Source: Hyphomonas sp. UBA5111
Lineage (GTDB): Bacteria > Pseudomonadota > Alphaproteobacteria > Caulobacterales > Hyphomonadaceae
Length of the DNA: 9,860 nt
Direction: 5' to 3'
Assembly (NCBI GenBank): GCA_002414505.1
Contig: DHZF01000143.1
Location: forward strand, 473 to 10,332
The position numbers were made by a program, and so were the translations under genes. Shown here piece after piece: positions 2 to 1,841 of this stretch; within the stretch, counting starts at the first letter, position 1; each line of letters begins with the position of its first letter. The notes under the pieces are model-generated. The model made no database searches. It was not told the origin of the DNA and worked only from the letters and a program-made list of their open reading frames with translations.

Positions 2-832
2 GACGTCGCGAAGATCTTCCAGAAGACGCCTTACATCGCGAACCTCAAGCCCGGTGGCGACTATGTTGCCAAGGATTTCGGCGAAGCGGGCGGTGTGCCC
101 ATGCTGATGAAGACGCTGCACGAATCCGGCCTGATCAATGGCGACTGCCTGACCGTCACCGGACAGACCTGGGCGGAATACCTCGAAGACATTGAGTGGG
201 ACCCGAACCAGAAGGTCATCTATCCGGCAACCGATCCGATCTCGCCAACCGGCGGTGTCGTTGGCCTGTGGGGATCGCTCGCCCCCGATGGCGCCATCGT
301 GAAAGTGGCCGGACTGCACACGCTGCAATTCTCCGGGCCGGCGCGCGTCTTTGATGGCGAGGAAGCCTGTTTCGAAGCCGTGTCCAACCGCGACTACAAG
401 GAAGGCGAAGTTCTCGTCATCCGATATGAAGGCCCCAAGGGTGGCCCCGGTATGCGGGAAATGCTCTCCACCACCGCCGCGATCTACGGTCAGGGCATGG
501 GTGACAAGGTGGCCCTGATCACGGATGGCCGCTTCTCCGGCGCAACCCGCGGCTTCTGCATTGGCCATGTCGGACCGGAAGCGCAGGAAGGCGGGCCCAT
601 CGGCCTGCTGAAGGATGGCGACATCATCACCATCGATGCGGAGAAAGGCACGATTGATGTCCGCCTGACACCCGCTGAACTGGAAGACCGCAAACGGCAG
701 TGGAAGCCGCGCATCACGGCCTATGGCTCCGGCGCGTTGCAGAAATATGCCGCGCTCGTTGGCCCGGCCCACAAGGGCGCGACGACCCATCCGGGCTTTG
801 CGGGCGAGCGGCACGTCTACGCGGATATCTGA
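2..832 (+). CDS. ilvD: Dihydroxy-acid dehydratase, C-terminal part (5' end outside window)
   Basis: Catalyses dehydration of 2,3-dihydroxy-isovalerate and 2,3-dihydroxy-3-methylvalerate to the 2-keto acids in cytosolic valine/isoleucine synthesis; an Fe-S enzyme. The open frame runs in from the left edge, so the first part (roughly half of a 560-610 residue family member, including the cysteines that bind the cluster) is not visible; 276 residues are. Family motifs seen: TPYIANLKPGG near the left edge, GGVPMLMKTL, GDCLTVTG, GPKGGPGMREML, and ITDGRFSGATRG, whose serine is the catalytic base in the family. The pattern GQGMGDKVALITDGRFSGATRG-type with GHVGPEA fits IlvD better than Edd or the sugar-acid dehydratases, although the sugar-catabolic genes downstream make an aldonate dehydratase a fair second guess. 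The last six codons (HVYADI) and the stop form one copy of a 22-bp repeat that recurs at 1820-1841, so this gene end was probably rebuilt by an insertion. Confidence 0.9.
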   Translation, partial: DVAKIFQKTPYIANLKPGGDYVAKDFGEAGGVPMLMKTLHESGLINGDCLTVTGQTWAEYLEDIEWDPNQKVIYPATDPISPTGGVVGLWGSLAPDGAIVKVAGLHTLQFSGPARVFDGEEACFEAVSNRDYKEGEVLVIRYEGPKGGPGMREMLSTTAAIYGQGMGDKVALITDGRFSGATRGFCIGHVGPEAQEGGPIGLLKDGDIITIDAEKGTIDVRLTPAELEDRKRQWKPRITAYGSGALQKYAALVGPAHKGATTHPGFAGERHVYADI

Positions 833-833
833 T
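812..833 (+). repeat. Left 22-bp direct repeat, overlapping the ilvD 3' end
   Basis: Starts CACGTCTACG and ends GATATCTGAT. It covers the codons for HVYADI, the TGA stop and one more base. An exact copy is at 1820-1841 in the same orientation. Upstream of it the sequence is in-frame ilvD; downstream the sequence turns AT-rich at once. I read it as the left attachment-site-like repeat of an inserted element. A 22-bp exact match next to a composition break is not expected by chance. Confidence 0.88.
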
Positions 834-902
834 CTGCCGAGTATTACCAATAACTTGTAGTTAACGCGAATCCCATCAGAAAGAGGAAAATGGGAGACGC
901 AA

Positions 903-1484
903 ATGATGCATTTGGTTTCACTAGGCAGCTTTCAAAGCCTCATTCAGTTGGCGATAGCACTGAATATCGGTCTGATGACCATAGGGGCCTATTCTCTCGG
1001 TTTGAGGAACAGAGCAGTTGGTCAAAGAAGTCAAAGGCTACAGCAGTTGTCGGCGATTGTTATGCGCAGCAGAGAACTATTTAGGCAGGCTGAAAGCGAT
1101 ACAGCCAAGACTGAGCTAGACCAGATAATCAAAGATGCGACCGACGACTATGGAAAGATCTCGGGGCTGAGCGAAGAGAAGTTTTCTGGCGAAATTGAGA
1201 CTCGCCCAAGACTTCTTTTAGCATTGATTGGTTTATCAATGGTCTTACTGTTGGGTGCGTCGATATTCCCAAATACAGAAGTGCATGTACTGTTCGGGGT
1301 GTGCTTTTTAGTTTTGCTTTTATTGGTAGGAATAAGAGCTTTCGCGGCGGGTAAAGATTTCATTGAGTTTGACACCAATTGGAGAAAGGCTCTTGAGGCT
1401 TCCGAGAAAAATCTTGAAAGTTTACTGTCTAAGCTCATAGAAGTAGATGAACAGATTTTTAACCTTAAAAAAAACTCGGAGTAA
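903..1484 (+). CDS. Three-TM coiled-coil membrane protein of unknown function (insert cargo gene 1)
   Basis: I do not recognise the family. The 193-residue protein shows a hydrophobic N-terminal segment (about residues 9-32), a charged helical stretch (about 35-100), a transmembrane hairpin (about 103-122 and 127-148 with a short NTEV turn), and a charged, coiled-coil-like C-terminal helix (about 150-190). The layout of a two-helix membrane hairpin with flanking coiled coils resembles, without provable homology, small membrane effectors such as SLATT-type proteins. Start: ATG at 903 with GGGAG at 892-896; a second ATG follows directly at 906. An ATG at 890 in another frame also has a good ribosome-binding site but opens only a 64-codon frame overlapping this gene. 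No convincing promoter is visible in the 70 bases after ilvD, so read-through from ilvD is possible. The next gene starts 8 bases after the stop. Confidence 0.72.
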   Translation: MMHLVSLGSFQSLIQLAIALNIGLMTIGAYSLGLRNRAVGQRSQRLQQLSAIVMRSRELFRQAESDTAKTELDQIIKDATDDYGKISGLSEEKFSGEIETRPRLLLALIGLSMVLLLGASIFPNTEVHVLFGVCFLVLLLLVGIRAFAAGKDFIEFDTNWRKALEASEKNLESLLSKLIEVDEQIFNLKKNSE

Positions 1485-1492
1485 CCTTAGCC

Positions 1493-1813
1493 GTGAAGTT
1501 GGAGTTCCGCCCAAAAGACCAGTCTGCCATTCAGAAAGTAATCAATGCATGTGTAAATTCAGAGCGAGTTGATCAAATATATCGACGTCTTGTTGGCGCT
1601 CTTTCCCTGCATAGGTCTGTTGAGGAAGCTAAAAGCTTCTGCTCCGATCATCTGGAGGAAGTCATTTTTGTTCCTAGAGGAAGAGAATATGACGTTCAAT
1701 TTGAGTGCGGCGTGCAATTGTCTTTGCACCGCACCTCTCGAGATATTTTTTATACCAAACGTGATGGAGCTATAGTTTTGGGCACAGGCTTGCGTGTGTT
1801 TTTGAAAAACTAG
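1493..1813 (+). CDS. Small soluble protein of unknown function (insert cargo gene 2)
   Basis: Family not recognised. 106 residues, no signal peptide or membrane segment. The N-terminal half looks helical (about 10-55: KVINACVNSERVDQIYRRL, then VEEAKSFCSDHLEE). The C-terminal half looks like beta strands (EVIFVPRG, YDVQFECGVQLSL, AIVLGTGLRVFL). Three cysteines at about 20, 50 and 72. The start is a GTG at 1493, preceded by GGAG at 1478-1481 inside the end of the upstream gene. No other start fits, since there is no internal methionine in frame. The 8-base spacing from the membrane-protein gene implies one transcript and a shared role. The stop lies 6 bases before the right repeat, so the two genes fill the insert. 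AT-rich codon use matches gene 1 and not the host genes. A partner or immunity-like role is only a guess. Confidence 0.65.
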   Translation: MKLEFRPKDQSAIQKVINACVNSERVDQIYRRLVGALSLHRSVEEAKSFCSDHLEEVIFVPRGREYDVQFECGVQLSLHRTSRDIFYTKRDGAIVLGTGLRVFLKN

Positions 1814-1819
1814 CAGAGC

Positions 1820-1841
1820 CACGTCTACGCGGATATCTGAT
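1820..1841 (+). repeat. Right 22-bp direct repeat (copy of the ilvD gene end)
   Basis: Identical over 22 bases to 812-833, same orientation. Here it is non-coding, because it lies after the stop of the 1493-1813 gene. It is the right boundary of the insert; G+C-rich host sequence resumes beyond it. A perfect 6-bp inverted repeat ACAGGT-TTT-ACCTGT (1842-1856) adjoins it. Deleting one repeat unit (1008 bp) would restore ilvD followed directly by the sequence from 1842. Confidence 0.88.

Follow-up and report, generated by a model that had tools for sequence, protein, structure and literature searches.

The 3' end of ilvD in Hyphomonas sp. UBA5111 carries a real, clean and single insertion with orphan cargo: an AT-rich islet of ~1 kb lies between two identical copies of the ilvD end, while the gene itself has been left whole. 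All positions below are those of the window, i.e., the entire stretch of 9,860 nucleotides that was analyzed, and the features are collected in Table 1.

Table 1. Features in and around the ilvD islet (positions in the window).
Feature	Positions	Strand	Basis or remark
ilvD 3' part (dihydroxy-acid dehydratase), end intact, stop codon at 830-832	2-832	+	Pfam ILV_EDD_C 8.5e-74, ILVD_EDD_N 2.7e-15
Left core copy, attL-like	812-833	+	Exact repeat
Inserted AT-rich segment, 986 bp	834-1819		Not present in any of the 17 other Hyphomonas genomes with orthologous ilvD
Possible hairpin GCGAATCCCAT / ATGGGAGACGC in the leader, just upstream of ORF1	866-900	+	Repeat arms
ORF1, 193 aa, no known family	903-1484	+	Hydrophobic segments: two strong, one weak; long helices predicted at low confidence
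ORF2, 106 aa, GTG start, no known family	1493-1813	+	Sub-threshold YjgF-like similarity, E 0.007
Right core copy, attR-like	1820-1841	+	Exact repeat
Intergenic DNA native to the ilvD-DUF3137 pair, with stems at 1842-1856 and 1875-1907	1842-1907	+	Parted from ilvD by the islet
DUF3137 gene, native ilvD neighbor in relatives	1908-2942	+	Pfam 7.9e-34; synteny

The boundaries of the islet are set by a 22-bp core, CACGTCTACGCGGATATCTGAT, which consists of the final six ilvD codons (H-V-Y-A-D-I), the stop codon and one further T, and whose two copies agree at 22 of 22 positions. Within the window this is the sole exact direct repeat of at least 18 bp at a spacing of 200-5000 bp. When the same criterion was applied to 34 related loci (635,856 bases), three repeats were returned, each of 18 bp (two of them being one sequence in two loci), and the DNA between their copies had a host-like GC content of 60-62%. 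The islet, in contrast, has a GC content of 43.7% vs 61.1% for the remaining window, where the lowest value of any 986-bp stretch to the right of the islet is 0.554. Third-position GC is likewise low in the two ORFs of the islet (0.47 in ORF1 and 0.40 in ORF2) as compared to four host genes (0.75-0.79). The first-pass annotation had described an exact 22-bp direct repeat bounding a 986-bp AT-rich segment, which holds exactly (22/22; GC 0.437 vs 0.611). Moreover, its worry that the repeat might be a dispersed one unrelated to ilvD did not materialize: the genome (a draft, 83% complete) contains the core twice, with no further copy at up to three mismatches.

The corresponding site is empty in the relatives. 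Our genus sample comprised 42 Hyphomonas genomes, 18 of which (including UBA5111 itself) carry an orthologous ilvD at 80-100% identity, one of these 18 genes being represented by only its last 92 residues at a contig end. In all 17 of the other genomes with the gene, ilvD is followed by the DUF3137 gene, the first ATG of which lies 52-81 bp past the ilvD stop. The nearest relative has a single core with continuous flanks, at an identity to the window of 95.3% up to the core and 93.5% beyond it (93.1% over 8046 bp). When species genomes were scanned with an alignment of 12 DUF3137 proteins, 34 loci were returned, many from Hyphomonas; ilvD adjoins the DUF3137 gene in 18 of them and all 18 are empty, many belonging to the same genomes as the genus set. 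The remaining 16 loci contain no such ilvD, the upstream flank being short in L072 and L079. Since all these sites are empty, the insertion was a clean one that left ilvD intact. Thus the gene-end repeat, the restored gene and the empty sites in relatives that are looked for in an islet at the 3' end of a protein gene are all present, and the earlier claim of an insertion at the ilvD end with restoration of the gene is borne out by the whole ilvD end and by the 17/17 empty sites. The search for empty sites that the first-pass annotation had proposed was therefore successful, and the opposite outcome, that all relatives would carry both genes with no empty site, did not occur.

Several features of the neighborhood were recorded alongside. 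Orthologous ilvD is patchy in the genus, as it is missing from 24 of the 42 genomes, 23 of them having only more distant proteins of the IlvD type (35-50% identity) and the remaining one no match at all. Three of the ilvD-DUF3137 loci (L071, L074 and L075) are titled Acidobacteria or Ca. Sulfopaludibacter and are probably mislabeled bins. In the native intergenic sequence, stem 1 stands directly downstream of the islet and the second stem ends right before the DUF3137 start codon; the folding z-scores were -4.2 for the window and -3.4 and -3.8 for the relatives L048 and L050, and stem 1 of L050 (H. atlantica) shows an A-U to G-C change.

As the first-pass annotation had it, the islet holds two ORFs, the second of which begins 8 bp past the first and ends 6 bp ahead of the right core. 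When the islet was shuffled 1000 times (moving two-base blocks, + strand), the longest ORF reached at least 193 aa in none of the shuffles and at least 106 aa in 29, so ORF1 is unlikely to have arisen by chance and ORF2 less clearly so. Neither ORF had a match at a usable score in Pfam, NCBIfam or PHROGs. The hydrophobic segments of ORF1 start near residues 16 (the weak one), 104 and 129, and the protein is predicted at low confidence to be all-helical (single-sequence model, mean pLDDT 63.0). Its PADLOC match to the CARF-LolE-TM model (E 0.00039) was discounted, as it aligns helical residues 39-149 with part of an 810-position profile. For ORF2, the single-sequence model was poor (mean pLDDT 56.8), a fold search gave no match at E 0.001 or better, and the YjgF-like similarity (16.6 of 35 bits in Pfam; PDB 2otm at E 0.27) was too weak for naming.

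Among 5.8 billion proteins, in a search that detects only relatives with shared exact 5-residue words, ORF1 and ORF2 each matched their own cluster only. The ORF1 cluster has five member sequences and stands for 50 contigs, the longest of 704,342 bases, and the ORF2 cluster has two members and stands for 22 contigs. These counts suggest that both genes exist in other assemblies and, as 50 contigs are set against 22, ORF1 is perhaps found without ORF2 in some of them. Beyond its own genome, ORF1 was found neither in GTDB species contigs (a search that reaches close relatives only) nor in 105 family or 385 class genomes, and ORF2 was not found in 398 order genomes. Virus contigs gave no match to the cargo, and plasmid and phage records gave none to the islet DNA. 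At the DNA level there was no other copy of the islet in the 42 genus genomes, where a search at E up to 1 returned only matches of 17-36 bp, spread over 18 of the other 41 genomes and with a best E of 0.003.

No sigma-70-like promoter match was found in the leader (834-902) by a search confined to promoters of that type, and the two found outside it, within 700-2000, are no more than expected by chance. With no promoter-like site before ORF1, both ORFs would depend on the ilvD transcript extending into them. The possible leader hairpin could mask the ribosome-binding site of ORF1, its fold (z -1.2) not being significant; Rfam gave nothing at gathering scores, its three matches (E 7.6-9.3) lying far below the cut-offs. 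As a guess, a membrane protein with a small partner would fit a defense or addiction pair.

The islet does not encode its own integrase. Neither ORF matches a recombinase family in profile searches of Pfam, PADLOC, PHROGs and NCBIfam, in agreement with the first-pass annotation, which had seen no recombinase inside. The genome, on the other hand, encodes nine Phage_integrase proteins, of which three carry an arm DNA-binding domain and two resemble Xer, as well as a 540-aa open frame of the Resolvase family, so that candidates for a recombinase acting in trans exist; none of them is tied to the islet core. The same genome has a classical, textbook island on another contig (C129, about 4504-10982). 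It is 6.4 kb long, sits at tRNA-Arg(CCG), encodes an arm-binding integrase and is marked by a 50-bp att repeat, with a further 20-bp repeat close to each end. Further repeats were seen among ten stretches of the genome: 19 bp on C20, 16 bp on C44, and a 23-bp repeat on C88 (19644-19868) that borders an N gap (19667-19827) and is probably a scaffolding artefact. A 22-bp repeat on C90 was rejected as an att pair, since both copies lie next to transposase-like frames in similar surroundings.

Only one occupied site is known. The first-pass annotation had suggested looking for other cargo behind the same core, and this came up empty: there was no second doubled core among the genomes with a core-pattern match, i.e., 66 of 105 in the family, 67 of 398 in the order and 31 of 385 in the class, sets that overlap, in which not all matches were verified as ilvD and from which more divergent cores would be missed. 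The exact 21-base core was not found in virus contigs, and five virus contigs with a degenerate 21-mer were set aside as chance matches (there is no ilvD in the stretches examined and the surroundings read like phage structural genes). No dyad beyond those of shuffles was detected in the reconstructed attB, attP, attL and attR (lowest fraction 0.26), and many genuine tyrosine-recombinase sites have weak inverted core-binding arms. Thus, of the earlier proposal of site-specific integration, the footprint stands, while the recombination itself was not corroborated: no second doubled core was seen among the core-matching genomes, and no inverted-repeat pattern stood out around the core.

The mobility mechanism is graded as probable, and we rank first, at somewhat better than even confidence, a site-specific, probably tyrosine, recombinase that acted in trans and inserted the islet as a small circle. 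This model is put forward because a doubled core, a whole gene and a one-copy empty site form the footprint of site-specific integration and the islet lacks a recombinase. The circle would measure 1008 bp, i.e., the two genes plus one 22-bp site, and would recombine with the single core at the ilvD end, by which the core would be doubled and ilvD kept whole. The helper would be a recombinase encoded elsewhere, making the islet non-autonomous, and the islet itself may be what deletions have left of a larger element, or else a unit resembling a cassette that has always lacked a recombinase. A bolder version, which we regard as rather improbable, is a free-moving cassette outside integrons, in which two promoterless genes and one 22-bp site dock exactly behind a housekeeping stop codon, borrowing a resident recombinase and the ilvD promoter.

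Ranked second, and possible though unlikely, is an illegitimate capture, in which fill-in of a staggered double-strand break at the ilvD end produced the 22-bp duplication and a stray fragment was joined in. Such a capture requires neither a recombinase nor a core on the donor, and it accounts for the single event, the orphan cargo and the absent dyad; the location counts only weakly against it, since ilvD would have to be spared by any harmless insertion at this point. However, with both ORFs complete and ORF2 stopping 6 bp short of the core, the unit is tidy for a random fragment. Moreover, the Ku gene is absent from the UBA5111 genome (83% complete) and from the 12 other genus genomes tested, which makes end joining of the Ku type unlikely; the only Ku among 21 genomes tested was in a more distant one.

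Campbell-type homologous integration, by which a small circle that happened to carry an ilvD end was taken up there, would leave an identical footprint. It is nevertheless quite improbable, as 22 bp is very short for RecA-dependent recombination and the islet DNA has no match among plasmid or phage records. A non-autonomous transposon, or an element like a MITE, whose target duplication was unusually long is highly improbable: a direct repeat does flank cargo without a recombinase, and some insertion sequences do produce long target duplications, but the islet has no terminal inverted repeats (the best end match, 10/20, was equaled by 195 of 1000 shuffles), which a DDE transposon or MITE would have, and no other DNA copy exists in the 42 genus genomes.

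That an assembly chimera produced the islet is hardly credible. The draft nature of the genome (162 contigs, 3.26 Mb, 83% complete) and the scaffold N gaps on both sides of the window (156-472 and after 10332 of the contig) would speak for it, but the window, lying between these two gaps, is itself without any N, so the islet does not span a gap. In addition, 22-bp identity at both junctions is not expected from a random chimera, and the clusters of ORF1 and ORF2 stand for 50 and 22 contigs respectively. Least credible of the rivals is the remnant of an integron array with decayed attC sites: the place is that of intI and its cassettes in Xanthomonas, and in X. cucurbitae two genes are retained at that position with no recognizable attC (PMC12444791, from the portion of the article available), but the islet has no exact attC, two relaxed attC candidates against a shuffle mean of 6.6 and GTT at neither boundary, none of the nine integrases reaches the NCBIfam integron-integrase cut-offs (genome 83% complete), and the 22-bp doubling of the ilvD end would be left unexplained.

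The site-specific, trans-acting reading has parallels among known systems. One is the pseudo-SCC element at rlmH, whose cargo lacks a recombinase and is framed by direct repeats at a housekeeping gene's 3' end, the recombinase acting in trans; pseudo-SCC elements have serine recombinases of a known family, a larger size and repeated use of the site, features not seen with the islet. CIMEs are likewise elements without integration and transfer genes that keep attL and attR (PMC5704250, in its accessible part), and the islet shares with them the att-like repeats and the absence of such genes. CIMEs, however, are decayed ICEs or IMEs, while the islet measures 1 kb in all. There is no ICE or IME remnant inside it, both ORFs being without a usable family match, and no related integrase-bearing element was seen at ilvD among the core-matching genomes or in virus contigs; the islet was therefore not classed as a CIME.

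The first-pass annotation had further held that a compact two-gene element with ilvD as attachment site is not a described standard type; as regards the site, this is too strong in view of two groups of reports, cited here from the portions available. In Thaumarchaeota, a dihydroxy-acid dehydratase gene is among the protein-gene targets of 14 elements; most att sites are short (the median across all elements is 17 bp), and integration takes place into 3'-distal regions of protein genes with a repeat that includes the gene end (PMC6563490). These elements resemble the islet in the 3'-distal integration into a protein gene, in the comparison with empty sites and in the enzyme concerned; they differ in that the complex ones span 2.6-140 kb, the cryptic ones are defined by an integrase and the host is archaeal (PMC6563490). 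In Xanthomonas, intI is located downstream of ilvD in nearly all integrons, as also in one other member of the family (PMC12444791), and X. arboricola has an integron downstream of ilvD in four genomes (PMC4686621). The likeness consists in foreign genes, many of them hypothetical, behind a bacterial ilvD (PMC12444791, PMC4686621), and the difference in that the Xanthomonas integron has intI and attC, neither of which was found in the islet, which has a doubled ilvD end instead. Thus foreign genes behind ilvD were already known in another bacterial class, as the available portions of these reports indicate. In the literature, surveyed only in part, there was no description of the islet or of any recombinase-less islet at ilvD, and among the matches listed for ilvD as an integration or prophage site, the only mention of ilvD was a cited work on SP-beta transduction of the B. 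subtilis ilvD region.

The islet therefore adds an alphaproteobacterial case of foreign genes at ilvD, beside the Xanthomonas integrons and the thaumarchaeal element. If a recombinase does act in trans, the 1-kb unit would be a very small site-specifically integrated element and would show a route by which genes without known relatives can enter genomes with no mobility gene of their own; failing that, it is a single, well-defined insertion of two orphan genes. Scans based on integrases would miss islets of this kind, while searching for doubled gene ends would reveal them.
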